Shown piece after piece: positions 48,696-63,585 of a DNA stretch of 64,000 bases (within the stretch, counting starts at the first letter, position 1; each line of letters opens with the position of its first letter). The stretch is from contig NC_008048.1 of the NCBI RefSeq assembly GCF_000013985.1, forward strand, positions 1 to 64,000. The letters are read 5' to 3'. The DNA is from Sphingopyxis alaskensis RB2256 (lineage in GTDB: Bacteria; Pseudomonadota; Alphaproteobacteria; Sphingomonadales; Sphingomonadaceae). The translations under genes were made by a program, and so were the position numbers. The notes below the pieces were generated by a model that had not been told where the DNA came from, ran no database searches, and saw nothing but the letters and a program-made list of their open reading frames with translations.

Positions 48696-48770
48696 TGGGG
48701 CGTAGCCAAGCGGTAAGGCAGCGGTTTTTGGTACCGCCATGCGCAGGTTCGAATCCTGCCGCCCCAGCCA
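48696..48770 (+). tRNA. tRNA-Gln (anticodon TTG)
   Basis: The 75-base sequence folds as a cloverleaf. The acceptor stem TGGGGCG pairs with CGCCCCA, the D arm lies around AGCCAAGCGGTAAGGCA, the anticodon stem is GCGGT/ACCGC with loop TTTTGGT and anticodon TTG at 48728-48730, and the T arm is GCAGG TTCGAAT CCTGC. The discriminator G is followed by an encoded CCA. Its 3' end is the likely attachment site of the adjoining island. Confidence 0.97.
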
Positions 48771-48883
48771 GCCGGTGCTGTGCCTCAGCCAAGGGACGGA
48801 AAACCCCAGGTTTCTCCCTTAACTGAGCAAGGCCGACCATCGCAGTGGCATCAATTGCTACCAGTGGGTGGAGCCAGTGCCTG

Positions 48884-50962
48884 ATGCCAGCAATCGAAAA
48901 TGTGAACCGTCGCGGGGCCACCTACTGGTGGCGTCGCCGGGTGCGCTTCGTTGGACGGCTTGAACGTCCTATAACCATCGTAACAACGGTCAGCCTTTTG
49001 ACGAAGGACCAGTCGGTCGCGCGACGGCGCGCGGTCGCGATGACCAGCCGAAGCGAGGTTGTGCGAATGAGCTTATACGAACGGATCGAGCAGGAAGGAC
49101 TGACCAGCGAGCAGGTGAACCATCTCTTTCGAGAGGAGATGGTGCGGTATCGCAACATGCTGGCGCATCAGTTGGCGGTGATCGAGAAGGACGGTGAGGG
49201 CAATGTCACCGCTCGCTTCCACCAGATGCTCTCGATCTATGCAGCGTTTAACGGCGATTTCATCGCAAATGGCTTCGACGACTATATGGGCATCGATTAC
49301 ATCGGGTCATTCGACAAGCGCTTTCCGTCGCTGGACGAAGAGGCCCGCGCCAATCTTTATGCGATGCTTTCCCAAGCCGGCGATGTTCCCGGCAATTTGC
49401 TGAATGAGGCAAAGGCATTGCTGGAGCGGCTCGGCATCGAGCCAGCGGCTGACCGAATCGAAATTGCCCGGCAGGTCATGTGTGGGGCACGGTTGACGGC
49501 CGCGGCAACCTACGACAGCCCCGAGGTTCGGGCGATCGAACACAGCTTGGCGCTGATGAACGCGCTCGGGCGAGCGCCTCTGCAGACTTCGATGCCTCCC
49601 CCGATCTCCGCCCCTGCGCCTCCAAACGCGTGGAACGCCAGCACCATTGTGCCTGCGTCAGCGTCGACACTCACCGATGTGCAGACCCATTATGCCACCC
49701 TTAGCCCGGTGCAGGCAGTAGAAAAATATATGGAGCTGAAACCAAAGGCGCGCGGACGGGAAGATGCGCCGGTCCTGGCCGAGGGTGCGAACCCCAAAAA
49801 GCGCAAGTCGCAGCCGAAGGTCTGGGGCGCCAGCCAGAAGCGCCAGTTCAAGGCCGCGCCCTTTCTGTTCGGCAAGTCAAATAATGGCAAGGCCATGGCA
49901 GCAACATGCCAGGAAGACCTGAACCAGTTTTACGACCTGTTGAACCGGTTACCGTCGTCGCATCATAAGTCGCCTCGACACGAAGCGATGTCGCTGGAGG
50001 AAATTTGCAGCGAGGCGCTCGATCGTCTTACTGAAGAAGAGGAGCGCGGCGAAGAAATCTCGTTCGCGATTGGCCTCGACGTAGGAACCATCAATCGTCA
50101 TTTCGCCAACCTCAAGAGATTGTGTGCGTGGCTTGCGACGAAAACGCCAATGGCGCCTCTCGATTTTTCAGATTTTATCCTCGATGAGGACGACAGGGAC
50201 GAGCGCGACGAGCGCGACCCCTATACGATTGCGCAGGGTGAAGAATTGTTTCGTCTCGGCATCTGGACCGGCGGTACGGGCGTCGATTTGCCTCAGCGTT
50301 TGTCCGTGACGCCGGGAGGCTCGATTTGGCACGACGCAGCCTATTGGGTCATGCCGCTGGTCTGGTATTCAGGTATGCGGCGCGAGGAAGCTTGTAAGCT
50401 TTTGGTCGATGATATCGGCGAAGAAGACGGTATCTTTTTTGTCAACATCAGGAAAACTTCTGCGGGCGGCGTCAAGAACGCGACCAGCGTTCGTAAGATT
50501 CCTGTTTGCGAAGAGCTGCGTCGCTTGGGCTTCATGCATTATGTCCAAGCCATGAAGGAAGCTGGCGAGCAGTACCTCTTTCCAGAAATCCAACCCGGTC
50601 GCACAGGGCGTGCGCTGGGAGATGTATTTTTCAAAAATATATGGCTTCACATTAAGCCACGTCTGAAACTCGTAAAGCCGGGACAGGCGGTTCACAGCGG
50701 TCGGCATATGGTCAGCACTGAATTGAAGATGTTGCAGACATTCGAAGAATTTCGGTCGGATCTTCTCGGTCAGAAGCATGGCGGCGAAAATGCCAACCGA
50801 TACGCGAGCGCCACACGCCTCCAGATCCTGCTTGATGTCGTGAACCAGATACCCAAAGTGACCGCCCATCTGCAAGATACCGTAGAAATCCGGTTGCTAC
50901 CCGTTTGCATGCGCGGCGCGCGGCCAACTCGCGAGAGCGCCGGGCGGCGCAAGCGCGGTTGA
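48884..50962 (+). CDS. Tyrosine-type site-specific integrase
   Basis: A 692-residue recombinase from ATG 48884 (MPAIENVNRRGATYWWRRRVRF; the Arg-rich N-terminus is typical of DUF6538-like integrases). The catalytic domain has Arg in WYSGMRREEACKLLV (about residue 499), a Lys candidate in KTSAGGVKNATSVRKIPV, HSGRH at 604-608 (His, Arg, His) and the nucleophile Tyr at about 640 (ENANRYASA). It is long, with a mostly helical central part. It lies 114 bases behind tRNA-Gln and probably integrates the island there. Confidence 0.9.
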   Translation: MPAIENVNRRGATYWWRRRVRFVGRLERPITIVTTVSLLTKDQSVARRRAVAMTSRSEVVRMSLYERIEQEGLTSEQVNHLFREEMVRYRNMLAHQLAVIEKDGEGNVTARFHQMLSIYAAFNGDFIANGFDDYMGIDYIGSFDKRFPSLDEEARANLYAMLSQAGDVPGNLLNEAKALLERLGIEPAADRIEIARQVMCGARLTAAATYDSPEVRAIEHSLALMNALGRAPLQTSMPPPISAPAPPNAWNASTIVPASASTLTDVQTHYATLSPVQAVEKYMELKPKARGREDAPVLAEGANPKKRKSQPKVWGASQKRQFKAAPFLFGKSNNGKAMAATCQEDLNQFYDLLNRLPSSHHKSPRHEAMSLEEICSEALDRLTEEEERGEEISFAIGLDVGTINRHFANLKRLCAWLATKTPMAPLDFSDFILDEDDRDERDERDPYTIAQGEELFRLGIWTGGTGVDLPQRLSVTPGGSIWHDAAYWVMPLVWYSGMRREEACKLLVDDIGEEDGIFFVNIRKTSAGGVKNATSVRKIPVCEELRRLGFMHYVQAMKEAGEQYLFPEIQPGRTGRALGDVFFKNIWLHIKPRLKLVKPGQAVHSGRHMVSTELKMLQTFEEFRSDLLGQKHGGENANRYASATRLQILLDVVNQIPKVTAHLQDTVEIRLLPVCMRGARPTRESAGRRKRG

Positions 50963-51176: not shown

Positions 51177-54100
51177 TTACGCAGCTGCGATGACGGCTAT
51201 TTCAGCGTCAAGCCGATGCAACGTGAAGCCATCGTCGCCGAGTGTCCTCCGCGCCAAATCGACGATATGTTCGTGGTGCGTGAAGACAATGACCTGAGTC
51301 CGTCTCGAAATCGCTCCCAATGCGCTCAACATGGACGCCGACCTCGGCTCGTCGGCAGTTATCAGGATGTCGTCGCAGATGAAGGGCATTCCCCCTGCCG
51401 CGCGCTCGTCGATTGAAGCCAGGCGCAGCGCCAGATAGAGCTGATCCCGCGTTCCTTCGGACATCCCATCGACCCCAACGCGCTCCCCGCCCTGCCGCAG
51501 GCCAACCATTCTGGGCTGATCGTCTGCACCATAGTCAAGGCCGAGCCCAGCGAAAGATCCATGGGTCATCTCCTGAAACAACGACCCTGCGCGAGCGATC
51601 AGTGGCCCCTGGCTTTCCGCTCGATGCTTGCCGATCAGCCAGCGCAGCATGGCGGCTGTCGCGGCGGCGCCGACGTGGCGCTCGGCCGCGTCGAGCAGCG
51701 CCGCTTCAATTTCCTTTACGCGCTGCTGCGCATCCGCTGCCAAGGTTTCGGTTGCTGCATTGTCGTGCGCAAGTTCGGATTCGCGAAGCACCTTCCCGAT
51801 TGCCTCGCGCTCGGCCCCTATTTCATGCTGCCGGTCCGCAATCGCCTCCAGCTCGGCAGTTGCTTCGTCCGCACCGATCACGGCGACGTCGGCAGTCAAC
51901 TCCTCGACGCTCCTGCCGCCGCTAATCTCTACAAGATCGTTCAACGCGGTTTGCCGCGCAGTGCCCAGCGCAATCGAATGCGTGCTCGTCGCGATGGCTG
52001 GCAGCAATGCCGCCTCCTCGGTGATATCGCCTATGCCGAGCAGCTCTGCGACGACCGCGTTTGCCGCGGCCGCGCGCGCCTCGGATTCCTGAATTCCGGC
52101 CTGTGCCGCGATAATATCCTCGCGGGCTCGCTCAACCTTTAGTTTTTCGGCAAGCCCGGCCTTTAGCGTCAGTGTCAGCGCGTGCACGTCCTCCGAATGG
52201 CGGGTAGGCGCGTCATGTCCAACCGCGGCAAAAAGAGTGTTGGCATCCGCCTCGAACGCGTCGATATCCTTTTTCATTCCGTTGATCTGGCGCCGCAGCC
52301 CGTCCGCCGTGGCGATTTCGGCAGCGACGGCTTCGGTCGCTTCGATTGCATCGGAAATCGCGGGGTCGCCGGCGTCCTCGAGCAATCCGGCTTCGACCAT
52401 CAAAGCGCCACGGTCCTCGTCGAGGACGGCACCGCGCGAAACAATCTCGCGCTCCTCCCGCGCCAGCTCGTCAAGCGTTGTTGCTACACCCGCCATCACA
52501 ACATTGGCGGCCGCACGCAGCCTGTCCGCCACCTCCAGCGCCGATAGACGCGCTTTGGCGGCACGCACGGCGTCCGCCAACTCCATCTCTGCCTCGATTT
52601 GAAATCCTGCCGCGGACGAGATCTGCGCTAATTTAGTCAGCGCCGCGGCCGCAGTTGCTTTGAGCCGGTCGAGGCCAGTCTTTGCGGCGGCCTGTTCCTC
52701 AAAGGCCTCGAGCACGCGCTCACGGCTCGCTCGCCACGCCGCGAGCGCCGCCGGCGGGAGCACGAGGCCGAGCGGTGCCAGCAGGCTCGCCCAATCTGCT
52801 TTAGCCTCCTCTAAGGCCGCTTCGGCCTCTTCGACGAGGAGCCGATTGGCTTGGTGAAACGCGTCGGCTTCGGCCGAAGTGGTGCGGGCAAGCAGAAGTT
52901 CAGCGATACGATCTGCTTCCGCGTCGCGCCGATCGGCGACTGCGTCCGCGCGCTCGACTGCGAGAGACAGCGCGACTCCGGCATCCTCGTCACCGGGCTC
53001 GCGCGGCCGGGCGAGGCGTCCCCGGACATCCTCTACGGCACTGTCGCGTAGCTCGCGCGCCGCGAGAACGGCTTCTGGTGTTGGGAGATCCCCCGCAGCC
53101 GACAAGCCGGCAAGGCGCGCCGTCGCTTTGACGCTGGCTTCGCTCGAGTTGGAAATGGCCAACTTGGCCTGGGCCAGTTGCGCGTTGGCAACTTCAATCC
53201 GGGCCTGATGTTCGCTAACTACAACATCCACGGGCAAGGACATCGTTCCGAGCCCGTCAATTTCTCCCGCCCAAGGGGAAAGACTGGCGCGCTCGATCTG
53301 CATTCGGCGCTCTGCCCGGATCAACCGTTCTTCTGCACTCGTCACCCGCTCCGCGAAGTCAGCGGGGACCGCAGTAATTGCATCCGTCAGCCCGGCCAGC
53401 TCGATGGGGGGCGGCAATGCTGCTAGGTCGGTTTCCGCCTTGGCTTTGGCCAGTGCCGCTTCACTCAGGGCCAAGCTCAGGCGGACGCGCCGCTCCGCCA
53501 GCGCGCGTCGGTCTTGCAGATACTCGCGTGCGCGCTTGCGCCATCCCGCCGATGGCAAAGCGGCACCAGCCGGTAAGCGCGCCTCGGAGCGGGCGGTTTC
53601 GATACGCGCCTCGGACCGCTCAAGCTCGCCGGTTCGGCGCGCGATATCCGCCACTGCCTTTTCGACCACAGGCCGTCGTTCCTCAAGTGCTTCGGCCCGC
53701 TCCCGTTCAGCAAGCAGCAGCTCGGGAAGTGTGATTGACGACAAGACATTCTTTGCCCTGTCCAACTGGATGCTATGCTGATTCTGGAGTTCCTGCGCCG
53801 TATTGCGATTTGCGATGGCTGCATTGAGCCGGGATGCGGCATCGGCGGGAAATAGCTTGATGTCGCCCAACGCCTCGAGTTCGGCGTCGATTTCGCCAAT
53901 GCGCGCCAAAGGCGCCCGCGCCCGATTGGTCCTTTCTAGTGCAGCGGCCCGTGTCGCAAGCTCGCGACTTTCAACCTGCAATTCGGATCGTTGTTCACCA
54001 GCTCGTCGCTCGGCGGCGATAATCGCACTCCACGCGCTGTCCGTCAGCGCCGACGAACGGACAATCGCCTGGGCTTCGCCCCGCTCTCGCATCAGCCGGT

Positions 54101-54644
54101 TGACGGGTGGAATCTGGGCGTTGGGCTTGAAGAGTTCGCCCGCAACCCGTTCGAGGCGGGCCAACTCCGCACCGACAACACTCAGCCCGCTGCCGGCCTC
54201 GAGAACAAGGCGCGCAGCGTCGTCTTTGCCCTCCAGAATCGCAAGGCCGCCGGACCGGAGTTTCTGGTGATCGAGACCGTACATTCGCTCGAAAGTCGTC
54301 CGGTCTATCCCGCCGAGAAAAGGAACCAGGATGTCCTCGGGGAGCGCAGTTCCGTCGGTGGCAAGCAGGGTGTTGCGGCTACCCTTGCGGCGAGTGATCT
54401 CTACCACACTGCCTTGATGCTCCAGAACCGCGCGAATGCGAAGCTCTCCATAGTCAAAGCGCCAGCCTTGCGCCGTTTGCGCATGAATTCCGAACAGCAG
54501 ATCGCCAATTGCCTCTAGCATGGTCGACTTGCCGGCCTCGTTGGGCCCCATGACGAGATGAAGATCCGGCCGCCCCGGCCCGAACGTGACGACGCGATCC
54601 GCAAAACCGCCATAGCGGACCAGATCGAGCAGCTGGAATCGCAT
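51177..54644 (-). CDS. Rad50/SbcC-like (YhaN-type) ATPase
   Basis: A 1155-residue SMC-like protein. The N-terminal half-ATPase MRFQLLDLVRYGGFADRVVTFGPGRPDLHLVMGPNEAGKSTMLEAIGDLLFG carries Walker A GPNEAGKST (33-41). Long coiled-coil arms (about 180-480 and 560-1000) follow. The C-terminal half-site has the ABC signature MSEGTRDQLYLALRLASI and Walker B PFICDDILI, then TADEPRSASMLSALGAISRRTQVIVFTHHEHI. The AAG variant of Walker A is that of the YhaN/AAA_27 group. It overlaps the phosphoesterase gene by one base, so the two probably form an Mre11-Rad50-like nuclease complex acting on DNA ends. Confidence 0.88.
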   Translation of the reverse strand: MRFQLLDLVRYGGFADRVVTFGPGRPDLHLVMGPNEAGKSTMLEAIGDLLFGIHAQTAQGWRFDYGELRIRAVLEHQGSVVEITRRKGSRNTLLATDGTALPEDILVPFLGGIDRTTFERMYGLDHQKLRSGGLAILEGKDDAARLVLEAGSGLSVVGAELARLERVAGELFKPNAQIPPVNRLMRERGEAQAIVRSSALTDSAWSAIIAAERRAGEQRSELQVESRELATRAAALERTNRARAPLARIGEIDAELEALGDIKLFPADAASRLNAAIANRNTAQELQNQHSIQLDRAKNVLSSITLPELLLAERERAEALEERRPVVEKAVADIARRTGELERSEARIETARSEARLPAGAALPSAGWRKRAREYLQDRRALAERRVRLSLALSEAALAKAKAETDLAALPPPIELAGLTDAITAVPADFAERVTSAEERLIRAERRMQIERASLSPWAGEIDGLGTMSLPVDVVVSEHQARIEVANAQLAQAKLAISNSSEASVKATARLAGLSAAGDLPTPEAVLAARELRDSAVEDVRGRLARPREPGDEDAGVALSLAVERADAVADRRDAEADRIAELLLARTTSAEADAFHQANRLLVEEAEAALEEAKADWASLLAPLGLVLPPAALAAWRASRERVLEAFEEQAAAKTGLDRLKATAAAALTKLAQISSAAGFQIEAEMELADAVRAAKARLSALEVADRLRAAANVVMAGVATTLDELAREEREIVSRGAVLDEDRGALMVEAGLLEDAGDPAISDAIEATEAVAAEIATADGLRRQINGMKKDIDAFEADANTLFAAVGHDAPTRHSEDVHALTLTLKAGLAEKLKVERAREDIIAAQAGIQESEARAAAANAVVAELLGIGDITEEAALLPAIATSTHSIALGTARQTALNDLVEISGGRSVEELTADVAVIGADEATAELEAIADRQHEIGAEREAIGKVLRESELAHDNAATETLAADAQQRVKEIEAALLDAAERHVGAAATAAMLRWLIGKHRAESQGPLIARAGSLFQEMTHGSFAGLGLDYGADDQPRMVGLRQGGERVGVDGMSEGTRDQLYLALRLASIDERAAGGMPFICDDILITADEPRSASMLSALGAISRRTQVIVFTHHEHIVDLARRTLGDDGFTLHRLDAEIAVIAAA

Positions 54645-55894
54645 CAGGCATCTACGCTTAGCGAAGCTTCGACGGCTCGCTTTGCCGCCGCGAGCAGGGA
54701 GTTACCATCCCGCGCGCTTGCTGCGGCCAATAGCGGTGCAAGATCCGCATCAATCGTGCCAGCAGGCATCTTGCCGACAAGCGGCGCGACCGCATCCTCC
54801 ACCGCGCGCAGACAATCCGGATCGGCCAATGCGCCATTCAGCAGTTCGATCAACTCAGGCGGAAGCCCCCGAGTAGCGGCGTCTTCACTGCTTTCAACCT
54901 TAACCCTTTCGATCCACAAACTCTCCGACACGGTCATGGCGCGCGCGCCGACTTCCGCGTTAAACCAATCCGGATCGGCGAGCAGTTTGTTTTGGAGGCC
55001 GCCAGAGGTCTTCACGTGAAGGCGTACCGCCGTCGGTCGGTCGCCCGCGCCTGCGATGGCTTCTTGGAGCACACCGCCGATGCCGGAGAGAAGCTCGTGC
55101 ATGTCGCTCGCCTGTCGCCCGTCGAACTCCGGCCGAGCCCATCGCACTTCGTCACACGCGCGGTGTTCGACCGACCGCACGACGCCTTCCTCCACTCGAA
55201 CCACCATGGCACCCTTGACGCCGGTCTCCCTGACATTCCGGCCCTGGGTATTGCCTGGATAAACGATGTGCGGATGCTCGGAGCGGATTGATGCATCATG
55301 GACATGGCCAAGCGCCCAATAGTCATGTCCCGACGCCACGAGCTCGCCGACGGAGCAGGGCGCGTAGCGCGCATGATCCGGATGCCCTTCAAGCGCGGTG
55401 TGAAGCACCGCCAAGTTGAACATCCCGGTGACCGGCGGACAATATTCAGCTGCGATATTCTCGAGGGTCGCTACATCCTTGTAGCTTCGGCCGTGCAGCG
55501 CGACTCCGAGATCCTCGAACAGGACGGTCTCGCACTTCCGATTGGAGAATCCGAAAACGCCTTCCGGCATGGTCAAATGGCGGGTAATCCGGCTTTCGGC
55601 ATCATGATTTCCGAAGGCGATGGCGACGCGAATGCCCGCTCGCGACAGCCGCGCAAACTGGGAAACCGCAAACTGCCCGGTCGACTGATCCTTCCAGGTG
55701 CCGTCGTAGAGGTCGCCTGCGACGACGACAAATGCGGCCCCCTCCGCGATGGCCAGATCGACGACATTCGCAAGGGCGCGCCGGGTCGCGTTGAGGGCCA
55801 GACCGCTAAAGGCTTTGTCCCGCTTCGCCAATCCGCCAAGCGGGCTGTCGAGATGAACATCGGCCGCGTGAACGAAAGTAAAGGTTCCTGTCAT
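54644..55894 (-). CDS. Mre11/SbcD-like metallophosphoesterase
   Basis: The 416-residue calcineurin-like phosphoesterase starts at ATG 55894 (MTGTFTFVHAADVHLDSPLGGLAKRD). Metal-binding motifs are all present: DVHLD (motif I, 12-16), VVAGDLYDG (II), AFGNHDAES (III), AVLHTALEG (IV) and LGHVHDASI (V, GHxH). A C-terminal extension (about 280-416) is likely the partner-binding region. It overlaps the Rad50-like gene downstream. Similar pairs in bacteria (YhaO/YhaN, SbcDC) cut double-stranded DNA ends and hairpins. Confidence 0.9.
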   Translation of the reverse strand: MTGTFTFVHAADVHLDSPLGGLAKRDKAFSGLALNATRRALANVVDLAIAEGAAFVVVAGDLYDGTWKDQSTGQFAVSQFARLSRAGIRVAIAFGNHDAESRITRHLTMPEGVFGFSNRKCETVLFEDLGVALHGRSYKDVATLENIAAEYCPPVTGMFNLAVLHTALEGHPDHARYAPCSVGELVASGHDYWALGHVHDASIRSEHPHIVYPGNTQGRNVRETGVKGAMVVRVEEGVVRSVEHRACDEVRWARPEFDGRQASDMHELLSGIGGVLQEAIAGAGDRPTAVRLHVKTSGGLQNKLLADPDWFNAEVGARAMTVSESLWIERVKVESSEDAATRGLPPELIELLNGALADPDCLRAVEDAVAPLVGKMPAGTIDADLAPLLAAASARDGNSLLAAAKRAVEASLSVDA

Positions 55895-55993
55895 TTTTTT
55901 GAACTTCTTCAATATTGCGGAGGTCTTATCATCGATTCATACATCTTAGTCAGGATCTCCACTTCTAGATAGCGGCCCGTCCTTCGGACCATA

Positions 55994-57361
55994 TCAGCAA
56001 TTGTCGCACGGCTGGAATCCGGGATTGTGCACCAAGGGTACGGAACTGGGCACCGCCCGCCGGGCTTCGAGGGCTCGCAGGTCGAGATCCACTACCGCAT
56101 CGGGCCGCTCGCCGTGCAGGAGCTTGAGGATTTGACCGAACATCAAGGCGCCCGCCACGCCCCCGACAAACGGCGCGCCTACCGCTGTTCCGGCTAGAAG
56201 GGCCAAGCCACAATCATCGACGCCGCTTTCGCGCAGGCGCTGATATCCCGGCATATTTCCCGCGGTCGCGACGCCTGCGGCCGCACCCGCCTTCCACAGT
56301 TCCGCGGCGGCTCGCTGCGAGGGAAAGCTGTGCAGGCGAACCGCTCTGAAGTCGCTCGCCGTTCGACCTATTCCTGCTTCGATCACCAATTCGAACCGAG
56401 GGAGTTCGAGCTGAGTGCGTGCCAGCGCATTGTCCACACCGCAGATCAGAACCGATGGATCGTCTGAGCGGCGGCTAAAGGCGCCGTCGAACGGACGCTC
56501 GATGATGGAGGTCGCGAAGCCGAGATTCTCCAGCAGAGCCGCAACCGTACGGGTCTTGCGGCCGGTGGTTTCAGGACGAGTCAGAATCGATGTGCTCGCG
56601 GTCGAGCCGGTGACGACATCGGTGTCTTGCAGAACCAGCTTCACGCTTGCCCGGTCAGAATAGGGGCTCATCGCCAGCGTCCACAGAAAGGCTTGGCCGA
56701 GATGCCCCAGCCCAAGCACCCAGAGATGATTGGGTAGCACCGAAACCGGCGGCCCGTCGCTTGCAGGCGAACGCCAGTCCTCATCCCCGTCCGGCCGCCA
56801 GATCGAAAGCCCATGGTCGCGGCAACCGGCGCCGATTTCGTCCCGCAGCATGGCGAATATTTCCGCGGCGGCCAAAGATCCGGCTAGCACCGCGGCCGCC
56901 GCGACTGTCTCCTTTTCATCCAGCCTGGAACCGCCGAGCGGAACGACACCGCCTCGCCATCCGGCAAAGGTGATTTGACAGCCGCCGCGCTCCGCCGGGG
57001 TGGTCGCGCTGCCCAAGAGTACGACGGGTGTCTCCTCGGCCAAGTCTGCGGTCGCGCCACCGAGCATTTCGACCGCGGATGCCAGGCTGTCTCCGTGCCA
57101 AGGTGCGAGCAATGGAACATCCGCGATCCCGGAGACCGTCACCCCGCCGAGCGCAAAGCGTGATGCGATATTGACGAATGTCAGCAACGCGATCTGGTGA
57201 GCGATGCTCTCCGTTACCTCCGGCCCGGCCGCAATGTGCGCTCGATAGCCGCGCAGGCGAGCCATTGCGGTCTCGGGACAGGATGCGTCGCCAAGGTCGA
57301 GATCGAGTTTGGCCAGCCGATTGAAGCCATCGAGGAAGGCAGTGAAGTCGCTGTGATGCAT
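55994..57361 (-). CDS. bilD: E1-like (ThiF-fold) ubiquitin-like-activating enzyme, BilD-like
   Basis: A 455-residue protein from ATG 57361. The second half is a ThiF/E1 adenylation domain: VLGLGHLGQAF nucleotide loop (215-225), VLQDTDVVTGSTASTSILT (240s-261), LICGVDNALARTQLE, and the catalytic-cysteine region DDCGLALLAGTAVGAPFVGG with Cys384. The first 200 residues form a family-specific N-terminal domain. It is predicted to adenylate the C-terminal glycine of the ubiquitin-like protein and carry it as a thioester. It is the last gene of the four-gene operon, 13 bases after the JAB gene. The E1 fold is clear; the bil name rests on context. Confidence 0.85.
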   Translation of the reverse strand: MHHSDFTAFLDGFNRLAKLDLDLGDASCPETAMARLRGYRAHIAAGPEVTESIAHQIALLTFVNIASRFALGGVTVSGIADVPLLAPWHGDSLASAVEMLGGATADLAEETPVVLLGSATTPAERGGCQITFAGWRGGVVPLGGSRLDEKETVAAAAVLAGSLAAAEIFAMLRDEIGAGCRDHGLSIWRPDGDEDWRSPASDGPPVSVLPNHLWVLGLGHLGQAFLWTLAMSPYSDRASVKLVLQDTDVVTGSTASTSILTRPETTGRKTRTVAALLENLGFATSIIERPFDGAFSRRSDDPSVLICGVDNALARTQLELPRFELVIEAGIGRTASDFRAVRLHSFPSQRAAAELWKAGAAAGVATAGNMPGYQRLRESGVDDCGLALLAGTAVGAPFVGGVAGALMFGQILKLLHGERPDAVVDLDLRALEARRAVPSSVPLVHNPGFQPCDNC

Positions 57362-57374
57362 CGAAACGAACCCT

Positions 57375-57854
57375 TCAAAAGGTGATGCCGCGCCAACCCG
57401 CTTTGGGCGACGGCAGGGAAATCCAGTTGCCGGCACCGAGATGGCGATAGACGCCGACACCGCGAAGGTTGGTCGCCGAGCGGGCGAAGGCGGGAATGAT
57501 GAGAGCTGTATGCCCCTTGATCGCGATCATCGGGTACGCGCGGTCGGAGTCGCTCTGCCCGGCGCTGCCGGGATGCGTGTGCACGTCTGCGAGCACTTCC
57601 AATCCCCTTACGCCACAGCGGTCCCACACCTTGCCGAGCGCTTGGCCCGAAAGATGGACATGGCCTCGCGACAATGCGTCAGGATCGATCTCATCGTAGA
57701 AGACGAAGTCCGTGACGACGCCCGGCCCGGAATGGCGATGTCCCAGCAGGAACGCACCGCTTTCGCGGATACCGCGACCCCGCCGGCGCAGCTGACCTAC
57801 AAGGCGCCACCAGCCGAGCCAGGACAGGCGAAAGGAATCAGCCGACGATACCAT
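57375..57854 (-). CDS. bilC: JAB/JAMM-type deubiquitinase-like metallopeptidase, BilC-like
   Basis: The 159-residue protein carries the full JAMM zinc site: Glu31 in GIRESGAFLLGH, His92 and His94 in VHTHPGSAGQSDSD, and Asp104 with Ser101 (HxH-x7-SxxD in form). The MPN core is complete with small extensions. ATG 57854 overlaps the E2-like gene by 17 bases. In BIL-type systems the DUB trims the ubiquitin-like protein or removes it from targets. The protein has one free cysteine (Cys80) and no extra domain. Confidence 0.88.
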   Translation of the reverse strand: MVSSADSFRLSWLGWWRLVGQLRRRGRGIRESGAFLLGHRHSGPGVVTDFVFYDEIDPDALSRGHVHLSGQALGKVWDRCGVRGLEVLADVHTHPGSAGQSDSDRAYPMIAIKGHTALIIPAFARSATNLRGVGVYRHLGAGNWISLPSPKAGWRGITF

Positions 57855-58296
57855 GATAGCCTCGCATGTTGAGTAACCGATGCACTTCGGCGAGGTACTG
57901 GATGAGACCGACATCCGGCCTCCAGACTAGGTGCGGATATTGCGTCGGCCAGTCGTGGTGACCGGTCAGTGAAATCCGGTCGAGGGGCATGTAAAGCGCC
58001 CGGCCATCCTGCCAGTCCCTTCGGAACACGCTGGCAAACGCGACATCGCCGATTGGCCATTTGTCCAGCGCCAGGATTGCCCCGGTGTCCGGGTCCCAGA
58101 GCCCTCCGGTCGGGGACGCCGCGGGATAGCCGGTAAAATCGAGGCGCAGATGGAACAGGCGGCCGTCACGGGCGGTGACATCGAACATTCCGTGAGGCCA
58201 TTCGAGGGTTCGCAGCGCCCATCGATTGCGTGCGGCGCCCTCCAGAAAGGGCGCCGCGGCAATGTCGCGCTCGAAGATGACGCGGTCCGGAGTCAT
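57838..58296 (-). CDS. bilB: E2/UBC-fold-like protein without any cysteine, BilB-like
   Basis: The 152-residue protein lies between the ubiquitin-like and JAB genes, in the slot of the E2 in bilABCD. Fold hints: LRLDFTGYPAASPTGGLWDPDTG (about 50-72) resembles the E2 beta-meander (YPxxPPxxxF), and DWQDGRALYMPLDRISLTGHHDW (95-117) falls where E2s carry their HPNV...GxxCLD active site, with Trp126 in LVWRP following. The expected Cys position reads LYMPLDR, and the whole frame has no cysteine. It is therefore either a non-catalytic or atypical E2-like protein. The assignment is by context plus weak similarity. Confidence 0.6.
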   Translation of the reverse strand: MTPDRVIFERDIAAAPFLEGAARNRWALRTLEWPHGMFDVTARDGRLFHLRLDFTGYPAASPTGGLWDPDTGAILALDKWPIGDVAFASVFRRDWQDGRALYMPLDRISLTGHHDWPTQYPHLVWRPDVGLIQYLAEVHRLLNMRGYHGIVG

Positions 58297-58297
58297 C

Positions 58298-58759
58298 TCA
58301 GCCGTTGATGCGGTCGGAGGGGACGAGATCGAAGGCGACGGCGCAAGTCTTGGGCTGCGCCAGCGAGCCCACATGGGTTGCCTCGTCCGGCCGCTCGGTC
58401 GTGCCGGCGAGCTGCAGCGACAGCTCGACGGCATCGGCCGGGTCGATATCCAACTTCTTTTCGGCGCGGCGCTTGATCTTCTTGAGGGTCGTGCCCGGGG
58501 TGAAGCCGTGCTCGAACGCCTTGCCGGCATAGCGCACGGTCACTTCGATCTGCTTGCACCGGTTATGATGGACGAAAATGCTGCCGCCCTCGACCTTATG
58601 GTCCGCGGCGATCGGCTCGTCGCCGTCTTCGAGGAAGAGGTGGCCTGCGCCGAACACTTCGTCGAGCTTGCGCTTGATATGAGCGAGATCGAAGCTCTCG
58701 GCCTTCTGGTGCTGGACTTCGAGGCTTCCGCCCCGCTTGATGAAGATGTCGATGGGCAT
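58298..58759 (-). CDS. bilA: Two-domain ubiquitin-like protein (ISG15-like), BilA-like
   Basis: The 153-residue protein consists of two beta-grasp-like units. Residues 1-68 run from MPIDIFIKRGGSLEVQHQKA to GGSIFVHHNRC, with repeated strand patterns. Residues 70-153 contain IEVTVRYAGKAFEHGFTPGT followed by KKIKRRAEKKLDIDPADAVEL, ending VAFDLVPSDRING with a C-terminal glycine (Gly153). A two-domain ubiquitin-like protein encoded upstream of E2-, JAB- and E1-like genes is the hallmark of anti-phage BIL operons. The first gene of the four; the gap to the E2-like gene is one base. Confidence 0.75.
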   Translation of the reverse strand: MPIDIFIKRGGSLEVQHQKAESFDLAHIKRKLDEVFGAGHLFLEDGDEPIAADHKVEGGSIFVHHNRCKQIEVTVRYAGKAFEHGFTPGTTLKKIKRRAEKKLDIDPADAVELSLQLAGTTERPDEATHVGSLAQPKTCAVAFDLVPSDRING

Positions 58760-58842
58760 CGTATGACTCCGTTGATCGACCGGGCAGGAACGCCGGTCTC
58801 AACAAGTCATCGTTGGCTCACCCGGAAAACGTCTGATCCTTG

Positions 58843-61800
58843 TCAGGCGGTCTCGGCCCGGCCGACCGCCGGGCAGGCGACGAAATGGGGGCAACGTCCG
58901 CAGACGCGCATTGCCGGTTTCGCCGGGAGAGCGCCTTTGTTGATCGCAGCTAGGATAGCCGCCGCCGCTTCGACGTCACCGGCGGCCTTGTCGTCCTGCC
59001 GCTTGACTGGAACTGTTGCACCGTCGGTGACATGCCCGATCGTGACGGAGACGTTCGGGCCGAATGTATGACGCGCCGCCGCCAGCAATAGTCCCGCCGT
59101 CAGATCGTTGCCGGTCTTCGAACGAACGCGGCCCGCTTCGAGAAAACGTATCTCTGTGCCGGCCGCCGTGGATCGGACCAGGGGCGCGGCGACGGTCAGC
59201 AGGCCGCCGTTTATGGGCAACTCGATCTGCGAATAGCCCGGCGAGTCGAAGCCGCTCATCAGGCGCCCCAGCGCCGCCGCCCGCCCAGCCGCATGCGCAA
59301 GATAGTCGGCAGCCAGTCCGTGCTCGGCTGGACCGCGAATGGCCCAGATTTCGCCAAGCAGCACCTGGAGCCTTTCCTCCACTCCCGGCCCCGACACTTC
59401 GGTTATTCGATCGACGAGCGCATAAAGCACCCCCGAGGTCTTCAGATAGGGCGTTTCGTGCCGGCGGCCCTCAACGCCAAAAAAGCGGCGATAGGCGATG
59501 CGAAGCGGGCAGCTGTCAAAGTCCCGAACATCGAACAGGTTGATCCGGTCGGTCGAGATCGGCGAGAGCGGGGAACCTGCCGCTCCGGCGGCTGTCGCTG
59601 CGGCTGGCAAATGGCGGCGTTCCAGCGCTCCGAGCCGTCCCAGAAACGGCGAAGGTTTGCGACCCCGCACGTTCGCCAGCTCGCTGTGATAGAGGCGCAG
59701 ATGGTCTTCGGCCCGGGATATGGCGACGAAGAACAGGCATTCCTCCTCCTCGAGATGACCCTCGCGCGTTTCGGGTTCTACAAGCCCCGGCGGAAGCGGG
59801 CTGTCGTCGCGCCGGAACGCGCCCGGCAGGCACTGATCGTGTAGGCCAACCACATGGACGGCCGGAAACTCCAGCCCCTTCGCGCCGTGTATGGTCATTA
59901 GGCGGACGGCGTCCGCATCGGCGCCGAGCGTTGCATCCCGCAAGTCTCGATCATCCGCCAGCAATACCGTGCTTCGCATGCGCTTGAGCGCTCGGGCCGG
60001 TGTCAGCGGCTGGCCACCCAGCTCGCGCTGATCGAGAAACCCGAGCAATGCCAATAGAGCTGCGCGGGACAGCGATCCGGAGGCGTCGGGAGCAACTGCT
60101 AGGTCGCGCAGATAGTCGGATCGATCGAGCAACCAGCTCGCCGCCACTTCGAACGCCGGGGTGAACTGGTCGAGCCCCGCCATTTGCAGGCCCAGCTGTT
60201 CGAGCGCTTCGCCACCTGTCGGGCTCATGCCTGTCAGGGTCGATGCGGTCGCGAGCAAGGAAAGCAGCGGCACCCGGGCCGCCTGCGCGGCTCGCACGAT
60301 AACACCGATGTCACTGGCGCCGACCCCGATCTCGCGAAGGGCCGCCACGCGAACGAGCGCGCCGCCATTCGCTTCGGCCAGCAGAGCAATGACTGAGAGC
60401 AGGTCCCGCACTTCCTCGCGCTCGAAGAAGCTGCCGAGATGCGTAGTCGCAATCCCGTGTTCGGCAAGGATACCGGCTACAATATCAAGGCGGTTGTTGG
60501 TCGGGGCGAGAACGGCTTGCTGCGACAAGGGGACGCCGGCCTGCTTGAGGGAAGTGATTTCGGCCGCCAGCAACTCTCCTTCGCACCGGTCATCGAGTCC
60601 GACGAGCAAGCGGGTTGCGCTCCCAGGCTCCTCCCGCGCGGATTTAGCATTATAGGCGAGCCCGTTTTTCCCGGCGCGCATGTCTCTGGCGAAGCCTCGG
60701 CCAAGCCCGACAATATGCTCGGTCGAGCGATAATTGCGGTCGAGAGGGAGCCGTTTGCCTCCGGAAAAATCGCGCTCGAACTGGGCCATGTTCGCCGATG
60801 ACGCGCCGCGCCAGCGGTAGAGCGATTGCCGGGCGTCGCCGACGACCCAAAGACGTGCACCTTCCCGATACAATTCCATCAACAGCCGCGCGCTAGCGCG
60901 ATTGACGTCCTGATACTCGTCAACCAGCACCATTGAATGGCGTTGAGCCACCTGAGCACGCACGCAATCATTGCGCATCATGAGGAGCGTCGGCAACATG
61001 ACGAGGTCGCCGAAATCGACAGCGCCGGCCTTCCCCAACGCATCGGCATAAATTTCGTAGACTCGTGCGGCCTCGCACGCTCGTTCGGCCACCTCGACCT
61101 GCTCTGCGCTCACGGCTGCCGCCAGCGCTTCCCGGGCACGCCGTGTAAACTCGGCGTGCGTGACAAGTTCGTCTTTCGCGCGCGAGATGGCCGAGAGGAT
61201 CTTCACGAGGCCCTGATCCGGATTGCGCAGATCATGATAATGGTTGAGCCCCATCAAGGGCAGCTGGTCCTCAAGCAGTTCGATCGCCTGTGCCTTGTCG
61301 ATGAGCTGAACGTTGCTGGGCAGGTCCAGCAATTCGTAATAGCGGCGGATGAGATCCAATCCGAAGGCATGGAACGTGCCGATCCACATATCGGCGGCAG
61401 CGTCAGGCCGGGCGGTGGCAATACGGTCCGCGAGTTCACCGGCCGCCTTATTCGAGAAGGTCAGCGCAAGAATTTCATTCGGCACGGCCTCGTCGAAGTC
61501 GAGCAGGTGCTCGATCCGCTTTACGAGTGTCCGCGTCTTGCCCGAGCCCGGGCCGGCTTCGAGTAGCAGCGCCGGATCCGCGAATCCCGCGGCGGCCTCC
61601 TGGCTGTCATCGCGCCCAAACTTCGGCTTTTGCGCATTGACGGTAGGAGCCGAGGCATCGGGTCCCAGCAGGCTGTCGAACAACTGACGGCGCACGAGCG
61701 GAACGGGCAGTTCGAGCAGCTGCGCGATGCTGCCTGCGCCTAGCCGCTCAACCAAGAAAAGCTGCCGCGCGAGCGCACGCGGCAGCAGCAACTCGCGCGC

Positions 61801-62181
61801 GAAGACATTGGCCTGGAGTTCACGCCTTTCGCGCGGTCCATAGGCTTCGACCCGCGATAAAGCACGCGAGGTACCAGCGTCCGGATTCGGGCCCGTACAA
61901 TTGTCTTGAGGACGGTGCAGTTTCAGATGCCCAAGCTCGTGAGCGACAAAAGCGGCTGCCTCGGCATCCGAAACATCGTTGCGAACATAAATGGAGCACC
62001 ACTCGCGAAGCAGTTTGGCATCGCTGGTCCCGATCACCGGATCGCCGGGAGGAACCGGCTTGATGACAAATCCTTCGGCGGCGGCGGCCGATTTGACGGC
62101 AGCGGGTCCGGTCGCACGCCCGGCGATCTTGGCTTCGCGAAGCGCGCGTGCATGAAGCCGAGCAAGGTCGAACGCCGCCAC
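58843..62181 (-). CDS. ImmA/IrrE-type metallopeptidase fused to a UvrD-like helicase with C-terminal RecB-like region
   Basis: A 1112-residue protein from GTG 62181, 4 bases after the preceding stop. Residues 1-165 are an ImmA/IrrE zinc peptidase (AAFVAHELGHLKLH, HExxH at 81-85, and ERRELQANVFARELLLP). Residues 200-790 are a superfamily 1A helicase: Walker A AGPGSGKT (209-216), LVDEYQDVNRAS, VVGDARQSLYRWRG, RLMTIHGAKGLEFPAV and VAISRAEDHLRLY. The C-terminus has FDSCPLRIAYRRFFG and the cluster RVCGRCPHFVACP typical of RecB/Cas4-like Fe-S nucleases, but the acidic-plus-lysine nuclease centre is not obvious. The role is inferred: DNA sensing or unwinding coupled to proteolytic release of a regulator. 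Confidence 0.88.
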   Translation of the reverse strand: MAAFDLARLHARALREAKIAGRATGPAAVKSAAAAEGFVIKPVPPGDPVIGTSDAKLLREWCSIYVRNDVSDAEAAAFVAHELGHLKLHRPQDNCTGPNPDAGTSRALSRVEAYGPRERRELQANVFARELLLPRALARQLFLVERLGAGSIAQLLELPVPLVRRQLFDSLLGPDASAPTVNAQKPKFGRDDSQEAAAGFADPALLLEAGPGSGKTRTLVKRIEHLLDFDEAVPNEILALTFSNKAAGELADRIATARPDAAADMWIGTFHAFGLDLIRRYYELLDLPSNVQLIDKAQAIELLEDQLPLMGLNHYHDLRNPDQGLVKILSAISRAKDELVTHAEFTRRAREALAAAVSAEQVEVAERACEAARVYEIYADALGKAGAVDFGDLVMLPTLLMMRNDCVRAQVAQRHSMVLVDEYQDVNRASARLLMELYREGARLWVVGDARQSLYRWRGASSANMAQFERDFSGGKRLPLDRNYRSTEHIVGLGRGFARDMRAGKNGLAYNAKSAREEPGSATRLLVGLDDRCEGELLAAEITSLKQAGVPLSQQAVLAPTNNRLDIVAGILAEHGIATTHLGSFFEREEVRDLLSVIALLAEANGGALVRVAALREIGVGASDIGVIVRAAQAARVPLLSLLATASTLTGMSPTGGEALEQLGLQMAGLDQFTPAFEVAASWLLDRSDYLRDLAVAPDASGSLSRAALLALLGFLDQRELGGQPLTPARALKRMRSTVLLADDRDLRDATLGADADAVRLMTIHGAKGLEFPAVHVVGLHDQCLPGAFRRDDSPLPPGLVEPETREGHLEEEECLFFVAISRAEDHLRLYHSELANVRGRKPSPFLGRLGALERRHLPAAATAAGAAGSPLSPISTDRINLFDVRDFDSCPLRIAYRRFFGVEGRRHETPYLKTSGVLYALVDRITEVSGPGVEERLQVLLGEIWAIRGPAEHGLAADYLAHAAGRAAALGRLMSGFDSPGYSQIELPINGGLLTVAAPLVRSTAAGTEIRFLEAGRVRSKTGNDLTAGLLLAAARHTFGPNVSVTIGHVTDGATVPVKRQDDKAAGDVEAAAAILAAINKGALPAKPAMRVCGRCPHFVACPAVGRAETA

Positions 62182-62185
62182 CTGC

Positions 62186-62770
62186 TTACTCTTCCCTCCA
62201 TCTCCGCTTGAACGCCTCGGGAATATCTGAGCGCGCCAGCGCGGTGGAAAACTCCTCGTCTCCACCATCATCGGGCTTTCCGGTGTTACGGTTCTCCGCA
62301 AGTGTCAGGCCCTCGCCCGCCTCGCCTCTGAAAAAGTCCGCCACCGCTCTACGCGAATAACCGAGCAGATCCGCAATATCCTGCGTGCAACGCGACTGCA
62401 TCCCACGCAAGCGGCGCTGCGCCAACCGGATGAGGAAATCGCGGTCGCGCAAGACTGGCTCGATCGCCAACCAGGTTGCCGGCTTCAGGAGCATCGCCGC
62501 CGCGTCGGGCTTGGCGGTTCGGACGCGTGCAACTTCGCCCAGATAGAAACTCTGGAGCCTCAATACTGCCGCTTGTGCGTCCTCATCGAGTTCGAGGGAC
62601 TCGGGCTCAAGTGTGGCGGCCGCCGTCTCAACCGCGGCACGGGCCGTCAAATGGCTGAACAATTGATCGAGTTCGTCCGGACCGAGCTTGTCCACTAGTT
62701 CGGGGTCCCAGGCGCCGCTGACGATATAGTCTTCGGCCAGTCTGCCGAGGTTTGGATTGATATTTTTCAT
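62186..62770 (-). CDS. Hypothetical protein with predicted helix-turn-helix
   Basis: The 194-residue protein is acidic and mainly helical (NPNLGRLAEDYIVSGAWDPELVDKLGPDELDQLFSHLTAR). The segment CTQDIADLLGYSRRAVADFFRGE (about 128-150) looks like a helix-turn-helix. No family is recognised. ATG 62770 overlaps the upstream stop (ATGA), and the stop lies 4 bases before the ImmA-UvrD start. It could be the substrate or the partner that the peptidase controls. Confidence 0.6.
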   Translation of the reverse strand: MKNINPNLGRLAEDYIVSGAWDPELVDKLGPDELDQLFSHLTARAAVETAAATLEPESLELDEDAQAAVLRLQSFYLGEVARVRTAKPDAAAMLLKPATWLAIEPVLRDRDFLIRLAQRRLRGMQSRCTQDIADLLGYSRRAVADFFRGEAGEGLTLAENRNTGKPDDGGDEEFSTALARSDIPEAFKRRWREE

Positions 62771-63480
62771 GACGTCTTCTCCGCGAGCGCCGATTTGAGC
62801 ATGCGCCCGAATTCAGTCTTGAGATTGGCCAATGTGCTGCGCGGGATTCCGGTCAGCCGGACGAGGTCATTCGGCGCCTCGGGCGCATCGATCGGCAATT
62901 CATTCAACATTAGCAAAAGGAATAATCGGCGCTTTTTCTCGGTGGGAATGCGCACCTCGGCGAAGGCCGCAAGGGCGGCTCGGCGTGCGATCTCATGGGC
63001 TTCTTCGCCGTCGTCGCCCCGATCGTGATCTTCGGGCAATACCAAGCTGCGCGATCGGTGGCGCTTGAACAGATGCCGATACGCATCGGCCGCCCGACGC
63101 CGCAATTCACGCTCGAAGGTCGCCTCCCACCAGTCGACCCCGTCCTGTTCGGCGAGCTCAGTTAGGAATGTCTGCATGGTCTCTTGGACCACATCTTGGC
63201 CGTCAACGCCCATCCGGGCGTAGATGCCGCGTACATATTCGTAGGCGCGCGCAATTAGGAGCGTGCTGAGGCGGGTGCTGCTGTCATCGTCTCCCTCAGT
63301 TCGATACCGGCGAACGAGTCGAACCAGCGCCGCTGACGGGAGATAACCGCTAGCCGTCCGGTCCTTGATCCTCGCCGCCGTCAAAATCTCTTGCGCGGAC
63401 AGATCCTCCGCCCAGTCCAGCGCTTTGCGCACGAAGCCGGGATGACGCGGTGCCTCTGGATCGACGGTATCCTCTTTCAC
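62767..63480 (-). CDS. Sigma-70-like (ECF-type) protein, first gene of the defence array
   Basis: The 237-residue protein from GTG 63480 has a sigma-region-2-like part (IARAYEYVRGIYARMGVDGQDVVQETMQTFLTELAEQ, about 74-110, then AADAYRHLFKRHRSRS) and a C-terminal region-4-like helix-turn-helix (NELPIDAPEAPNDLVRLTGIPRSTLANLKTEFGRML). The similarity to extracytoplasmic-function sigma factors is in pattern and not certain. It would be the regulator of the whole minus-strand array. It sits behind an inverted repeat and a 500-base gene-free leader. Confidence 0.6.
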   Translation of the reverse strand: MKEDTVDPEAPRHPGFVRKALDWAEDLSAQEILTAARIKDRTASGYLPSAALVRLVRRYRTEGDDDSSTRLSTLLIARAYEYVRGIYARMGVDGQDVVQETMQTFLTELAEQDGVDWWEATFERELRRRAADAYRHLFKRHRSRSLVLPEDHDRGDDGEEAHEIARRAALAAFAEVRIPTEKKRRLFLLLMLNELPIDAPEAPNDLVRLTGIPRSTLANLKTEFGRMLKSALAEKTS

Positions 63481-63533
63481 GCCAGTGTTCCTAACTGTTG
63501 AACGTCCGGAATCTCATTCGATTTGTCACTAGG

Positions 63534-63585
63534 AAAAGCTCTGAACTATTTTTCGGGCGCTCGACTCGGCCGCTTCAGAGCTTTT
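63534..63585. promoter_or_regulatory. Perfect 12-bp inverted repeat upstream of the defence array
   Basis: AAAAGCTCTGAA (63534-63545) and TTCAGAGCTTTT (63574-63585) are exact reverse complements with a 28-base spacer. It lies 53 bases upstream of the GTG of the sigma-like gene. It may be an operator for a dimeric regulator or an mRNA hairpin in the leader. A promoter further upstream was not identified with confidence. Confidence 0.6.

Follow-up and report, generated by a model that had tools for sequence, protein, structure and literature searches.

Several parts of the picture described here are already known, namely the BIL (bacterial ISG15-like) system itself, inactive E2-like domains in polyUbl operons, and DNA-damage regulators of Bil and Bub operons. 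The BIL system of Collimonas sp. OK412 was described as tagging the central tail fibre of phage (PMC11364771, PMC12948488), and a structurally studied BilB has a CEHH motif with Cys138 (review, PMC11354881). In the polyUbl operons of class 6e (Iyer et al. 2006) the E2-like domain was already called inactive, without Cys (PMC1779556). DNA-damage regulators are known for Bil operons (CapK with CapS) and for Bub operons, and the pair formed by CapH, a helix-turn-helix (HTH) repressor, and CapP, an M78-type protease activated by single-stranded DNA, controls immune and Bub operons (PMC13373217). The first 64,000 nucleotides of contig NC_008048.1 of Sphingopyxis alaskensis RB2256 (this whole stretch is called the window) were found to carry a bilABCD operon in which the E2-like protein BilB has no catalytic Cys, and which lies behind three further conserved genes. 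It seems reasonably probable that this is a Cys-less-E2 subtype of BIL placed behind a dedicated three-gene switch that is triggered by DNA damage or phage.

The genes of the operon are as follows.

58298–58759, minus strand: bilA, encoding a ubiquitin-like protein of 153 amino acids (aa) with the C-terminus ...DRING, the last residue being G153 with no tail
57838–58296, minus strand: bilB, 152 aa, E2-like (UBC fold), zero Cys, Leu105 at the position of the catalytic Cys
57375–57854, minus strand: bilC, 159 aa, JAMM peptidase with a complete zinc site
55994–57361, minus strand: bilD, 455 aa, E1-like, nucleotide loop GLGHLG from residue 217, catalytic Cys384

An earlier note on this DNA had described four minus-strand genes at these coordinates, and on re-reading both the coordinates and the spacing were correct: a single base separates bilA from bilB, bilB and bilC overlap by 17 bases, and 13 bases lie between bilC and bilD. 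The residues it had named were also in place, including the JAMM site of BilC (Glu31, His92, His94, Ser101 and Asp104), the GLGHLG loop and Cys384 of the E1, and the terminal glycine of BilA. The order A-B-C-D on a single strand is that of BIL, and PADLOC returned near-full-length matches well above chance, one gene per model (BilA 145.7, BilB 167.6, BilC 186.4 and BilD 474.7 bits), with no second family matching these proteins at E 1, which bears out the proposed family. In Pfam, BilB matched DUF7665 (206.7 bits), BilC matched Prok-JAB slightly over the cut-off and BilD matched ThiF below threshold, while BilA had no match and hence no Multi_ubiq, the domain expected of polyUbl class 6e; NCBIfam has no name for any of the four. 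BilC was further related to the solved BilC chain 8tyx_B of the PDB (E 2.4e-11). A profile of ten BilA relatives found a poly-ubiquitin chain as its best PDB match (E 2.6e-19), followed by di-ubiquitin chains at E 4e-4 and weaker, and BilA is expected to consist of two beta-grasp domains. The second gene had been called E2-like, and BilB was indeed found to have the E2/UBC fold and similarity to known BIL proteins. By gene content, order, folds and E1 and JAMM residues, the operon is a member of the BIL family.

The conserved LYxPCDR motif has lost its Cys in the window BilB, where Leu105 takes its place. Because of this, the operon is filed from its gene content as a Cys-less-E2 variant and not as canonical BIL. 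The BIL interpretation therefore holds for the family but not for the ordinary E1-E2 relay, and the known BIL mechanism is not transferable unchanged. Nor is the unit limited to four genes, as had been supposed, since the conserved unit comprises seven and extends upstream to 63480. Its upstream part, with two associated promoter-like elements, is made up as follows.

63514–63543, minus strand: promoter-like element before ORF237, of the same two-part form as the element before bilA
62767–63480, minus strand: ORF237, sigma-factor-like, first controller gene
62186–62770, minus strand: ORF194, of an HTH-like family with a conserved C-terminal motif
58843–62301, minus strand: M78-UvrD, a fusion of Peptidase_M78 (Pfam, 7.2e-8) and UvrD helicase (UvrD-helicase, 2.1e-60)
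58807–58835, minus strand: promoter-like element before bilA, whose end lies 47 bases ahead of the bilA start

Numbered from the TTG at 62301, M78-UvrD has HELGH at 121, GPGSGKT at 250 and a C-terminal CGRCPHFVAC at 1134; its true start is probably near 62181, judging by eye from relatives. In one related fusion (L126:5837-9238) a PDDEXK_1 match was seen at the C-terminus, and by eye the nuclease motif seems lost both there and in the window protein. The window copy of ORF237 matched sigma70-ECF of NCBIfam at E 0.0022, below the cut-off. Among 28 members of its family, at E up to 0.1, Sigma70_r4_2 was found in 16 (best 1.6e-8) and Sigma70_ECF in four. For ORF194, matches were weak and scarce: at the same threshold HTH_31 was found in two of 37 family members (best 3.5e-5), the window copy not being one of them, and Xre-like signals were weak as well, while the family alignment has a helical core and an HTH-like look. 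Matches to a structure library were too weak to give this protein a fold name. ORF194 is a candidate repressor or anti-sigma factor and a candidate target of the M78 protease.

The upstream genes were followed through 110 loci; since 80 of the loci are the most similar 80 of 255, the counts drawn from those 80 are not a census. Relatives on plasmids repeatedly showed these genes ahead of bilA. Of all the loci, 86 have 3.3 kb or more of DNA upstream of bilA (L109, a repeat of the L025 plasmid, and L025 both being among them). In 76 of the 86, a homolog of the fusion lies directly upstream of bilA on the same strand, at gaps of 50–249 bp, and HExxH was present inside the first 350 residues in 73 of the 76. 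No helicase gene adjoins bilA in the other ten, two of which (L050 and L105) have a shortened copy farther away. Iterated profile searches of the 110 loci gave 75 homologs of ORF194 and 71 of ORF237. The helicase gene comes next after the ORF194 homolog in 72 of the 75 loci (exceptions L026, L042 and L104), and the ORF237 homolog immediately precedes that of ORF194 in 69 of the 71. According to the record titles, the loci range over Proteobacteria, Planctomycetes, Chloroflexi, Acidobacteria and Candidatus Manganitrophus. In three relatives that lack the helicase gene, an HTH gene and an ImmA/IrrE gene are annotated next to bilA; they share its strand in L017 and are divergent from it in L028 and L030. 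L017 is from Paraburkholderia caffeinilytica; its BilB has Tyr at the position of the catalytic Cys, and its operon was reportedly among those assayed in Millman 2022.

When spaced tetramers were counted without supervision, TTTC-N19-CGAT, TTCC-N18-CGAT and TCCG-N17-CGAT ranked at or near the top both before bilA and before ORF237; for ORF237 the first rank was held by AAAA-N15-TTCC (23 rows). These pairs occurred in 24–26 of 85 thinned bilA rows and in 22 of 70 thinned ORF237 rows, and the best pair in three mononucleotide shuffles reached 4–6. The pattern TT[TC]CGG?-N16/17-CGAT was present in 37 of 102 bilA upstream regions and 32 of 71 ORF237 upstream regions, as against one of 104 control regions (before bilD) and 0.1–0.3 in mononucleotide shuffles, L109 being left out of these pattern counts. 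In its loosest N16-18 form it was found in eight of the 104 controls versus 42 (bilA) and 35 (ORF237), and 37 of 71 loci had a loose form before both genes. In all seven loci of the clade with Leu in BilB, described below, the two upstream regions match each other best, over 28 bases, at the element itself, 71–81 and 66–76 bp before the starts, with a spacer about seven bases shorter (by eye); taken singly, these elements are only modestly above shuffles. A short pattern derived from the two window sites had no further exact match in its own genome, and two further matches when two mismatches were allowed, compared with three for the reversed control. In its two-part form and spacing the element fits a putative alternative-sigma promoter, for which ORF237 would be the natural candidate.

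The ORF194 alignment was also searched against two overlapping genome samples, one drawn from the class (385 genomes) and one from the phylum (398). Strong matches (E <= 5e-11) were found in ten distinct genomes, and in all ten the trio fronts a ubiquitin-like operon: bilABCD in three (the own genome, G764 and G731) and, directly downstream, a polyUbl operon in seven (L126, L127 and L141-L145). Multi_ubiq, ThiF and DUF6527 were identified by Pfam in both L126 and L127; L127 additionally has Prok-E2_E and Prok-JAB, and L126 has DUF6791. The remaining five were assigned by blastp against these two, the weakest being L142, where DUF6527 was not seen. By annotation and by the ORF194 and ORF237 profiles, trio and polyUbl operon also stand together on plasmids of Agrobacterium pusense (L148) and Cereibacter azotoformans (L150). 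Short DNA matches to the helicase gene fell within the trio and multiubiquitin operons of these two plasmids, and in an unannotated stretch of a third (L149). Within the class sample, the BIL genomes L128 and L129 gave no ORF194 match, and the promoter pattern was absent from most of the polyUbl loci checked, so that a shared element for polyUbl is not established. Weaker ORF194 matches (E 5e-5 to 9e-4) numbered nine and ten in the two samples, partly overlapping; as only the strong matches were looked at, exclusivity of the trio to ubiquitin-like operons is not claimed.

It is doubtful that M78-UvrD is instead a second, DNA-directed effector which travels with BIL and switches nothing. Such a role would suit the complete SF1 helicase, its C-terminal CxxC..C motif and its matches to Gabija GajB models in PADLOC, as it would the PDDEXK_1 match in L126. 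It would not suit the fact that 72 of the 75 loci with the HTH-like gene have the helicase gene joined to it, the three BIL loci that carry HTH and ImmA/IrrE genes beside bilA in its stead, or the presence of the same trio before another type of ubiquitin-like operon.

The column of the catalytic Cys was read in 106 aligned BilB sequences, an alignment that omits the weak and divergent L013 and L014 (L008, L015 and L082 have no BilB). Cys occupies it in 88 rows (the repeated L109 among them), Leu in seven, Trp in four, Tyr in two, Ala in two, one of which is an artefact of the frameshifted L105, and Ile, Ser and Val in one each. The Leu carriers are the window, Sphingorhabdus sp. YGSMI21 (L016), a Sphingomonadales metagenome-assembled genome (MAG; L036), Methylobacterium jeotgali (L032), a Methylobacteriaceae MAG (L033), Microvirga zambiensis (L034) and a Rhizobiales isolate (L035). 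The positions flanking the site are retained (Y102, P104, D106, R107 and H113), and in the window, L016 and L036 no Cys is left anywhere in BilB. A tree of BilC and BilD (105 rows without L109; a quick method, the root not inferred) joined the seven Leu rows in one group with SH-aLRT 99. When it was rooted on the Trp and Ile rows, the Leu group came to lie among the Cys rows; support along the inner branches was mixed, those leading into it having SH-aLRT 98, 61, 83, 42 and 49. In two genome samples drawn blind to the site, which overlap and each include the own genome, five of 11 confident BilB were non-Cys (the Leu of the window, three Trp and one Ile) and six had Cys, the weak matches L008, L013, L014 and L015 being uncounted. 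On these alignments the loss of the Cys is a property of a clade and not a sequencing error.

The remaining conjugation chemistry appears intact. The Cys384 column of BilD has Cys in all 95 full-length sequences, 12 of which are paired with a non-Cys E2; the frameshifted L105 is not counted, and the non-Cys rows L006, L007, L011, L012 and L027 are outside the 95, their BilD being cut or short. The JAMM site is kept in 100 of 106 BilC by pattern and in the remaining six by eye. Relatives of BilA retain the C-terminal Gly, bare or with a short tail, and in four of the seven Leu-clade proteins two or three residues follow ..NG (NGSI, NGSGE, NGGW and NGCQ), so trimming by BilC still seems to be needed there. 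Most substitution-rate comparisons (NG86 and YN00) were saturated, and non-synonymous (dN) and synonymous (dS) values are given only for bilB between the window and L016 (YN00, dN 0.21, dS 2.73) and for bilD between the window and L036 (NG86, 0.28/1.38). Eight residues after the E1 Cys, at BilD residue 392 (window 56186–56188), Thr is present in all seven Leu-clade proteins and Lys or Arg in 75 of 81 of the Cys type, L109 excluded; as the Leu carriers are one clade, this may reflect shared descent only.

These data also bear on the possibility that the operon is a decaying BIL, the E2 active site being lost and the conjugation pathway dead or dying in this lineage, which we regard as distinctly unlikely. 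The complete absence of Cys from BilB of the window, L016 and L036 would be consistent with decay. So would the state of L016 (L016:2479-4176), where the shortened ORF237 homolog has 156 aa and is separated from the ORF194 homolog by an annotated IS256 transposase gene that comes after it. A pathway in decay is at odds, however, with Leu in seven of seven Sphingomonadales and Hyphomicrobiales genomes, all with the four bil genes open, with identities to L016 that are alike for BilA, BilB, BilC and BilD (each between 65 and 70%), with the retained E1 Cys and JAMM site, and with the occurrence of Trp, Tyr or Ile at the E2 site in other lineages. An ordinary BIL, in which BilB uses another nucleophile or its Cys was misplaced by the alignment, is very unlikely, given that the window BilB has no Cys at all and that all seven proteins have Leu at the site. 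Weakest of all, and extremely improbable, is a separate Cys-bearing E2 elsewhere in the genome that serves BilD with BilB as a mere helper: UEV-type E2 helper proteins do occur in eukaryotes, but the genome has a single BilB and no match to UQ_con or Prok-E2_B, although neither search matched any control genome either, so that these two do not establish absence.

For the Cys-less-E2 subtype behind its switch, the following course of events can be proposed. We infer that phage replication or DNA damage would yield single-stranded DNA or DNA ends to be sensed by the helicase part, and that this would activate the M78 protease to cleave the HTH-like ORF194. Cleavage would free the sigma-like ORF237, which would then transcribe its own operon and bilABCD through the twin elements. 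BilC would trim BilA where required and could take it off again; BilD would adenylate BilA and then hold it on Cys384. Because BilB cannot form a thioester, BilA is proposed to go directly from BilD to a target lysine; BilB would serve as an adaptor without catalytic function, docking BilD and the target in the manner of UEV/RWD-type E2 variants. The target might be a part of the phage virion, by analogy with Collimonas OK412, and both the anti-phage action and the virion tagging suggested for the window operon are drawn from that analogy only. More tentative is the wider reading, possible but not favoured over its negation, that BIL and polyUbl share a portable switch and that the Leu clade skips the E2 thioester, transfer from E1 to target being guided by a pseudo-E2.

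The earlier note had also placed the operon in an integrase-linked tRNA island, consistent with horizontal spread as defence. The features bearing on this are two.

48696–48770, plus strand: tRNA-Gln, the apparent integration site
48845–50962, plus strand: tyrosine-integrase-like gene (Pfam Phage_integrase E 2.8e-4, below the cut-off)

Together with a fall in GC content across the region from about 0.69 to 0.57–0.65, these agree with an island, the far end of which is not fixed, since a search of the contig's first 104 kb for direct repeats of the tRNA end region found none of 14 bases or more. Horizontal spread of the operon is supported by the plasmid collection, in which the closest BilB relative comes from a plasmid of Sphingorhabdus and 22 plasmid records contain BilB relatives; in phage records no BilD relative was found at E 1e-5. 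Directly downstream of bilD (window 51177–55912) lies a gene pair encoding a YhaN-like AAA_27 ATPase and an SbcD/Mre11-like nuclease. Such a pair does not follow bilD in L032, L034, L035 and L036, and the contig of L033 ends too early. A relative of SbcD was found in only three of the 110 loci, many of them short (directly 3' of bilD on the same strand in L016 and L105, on the opposite strand in L063), and the two genes were rejected as a core of the system.

If the proposed arrangement is correct, it would give bacterial ubiquitin-like immunity a specific trigger, provide a natural test of whether tagging requires the E2 cysteine, and make the trio usable as a marker for further ubiquitin-like operons. 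The switch may have been overlooked, as the studied Collimonas operon seems to retain only a remnant of it.

Within the open-access literature searched, outside which the primary BIL papers lie, neither the M78-UvrD, sigma and HTH trio in company with these systems nor a Cys-less BilB was found described. Collimonas sp. OK412 has bilABCD in the same order as the window, with identities of 42% for BilD, 45% for BilC and 37% for BilA. Unlike the window, its BilB keeps the motif Cys (residue 113 by count), and upstream there is only a truncated C-terminal remnant of the helicase gene (473 aa; L094:6010-7431), with no match to the ORF237 or ORF194 profiles among the listed upstream open reading frames; its controller seems to have been lost. 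The E1-E2-Ubl complex of PDB 8tz0/8tyz would likewise differ in having an E2 with the CEHH Cys138, if the BilB of PMC11354881 is, as we presume, the E2 of 8tz0. Among the known regulators compared, which also include CapW and CapK with CapS, CapH and CapP resemble the window in pairing a protease gene with an HTH-like neighbour ahead of an immune or ubiquitin-like operon (PMC13373217), and an M78/ImmA-type protease with HExxH is present here too (HELGH at 121); in the window, however, the protease does not stand alone but forms a fusion with a UvrD helicase, and the set includes a sigma-like gene as well. In the main text of PMC1779556 the word helicase does not occur. The polyUbl operons of class 6e nevertheless share with the window the upstream trio (seven genomes and two plasmids), while BilA-D are replaced by Multi_ubiq, Prok-E2_E, JAB-E1 or DUF6791-ThiF, and DUF6527.

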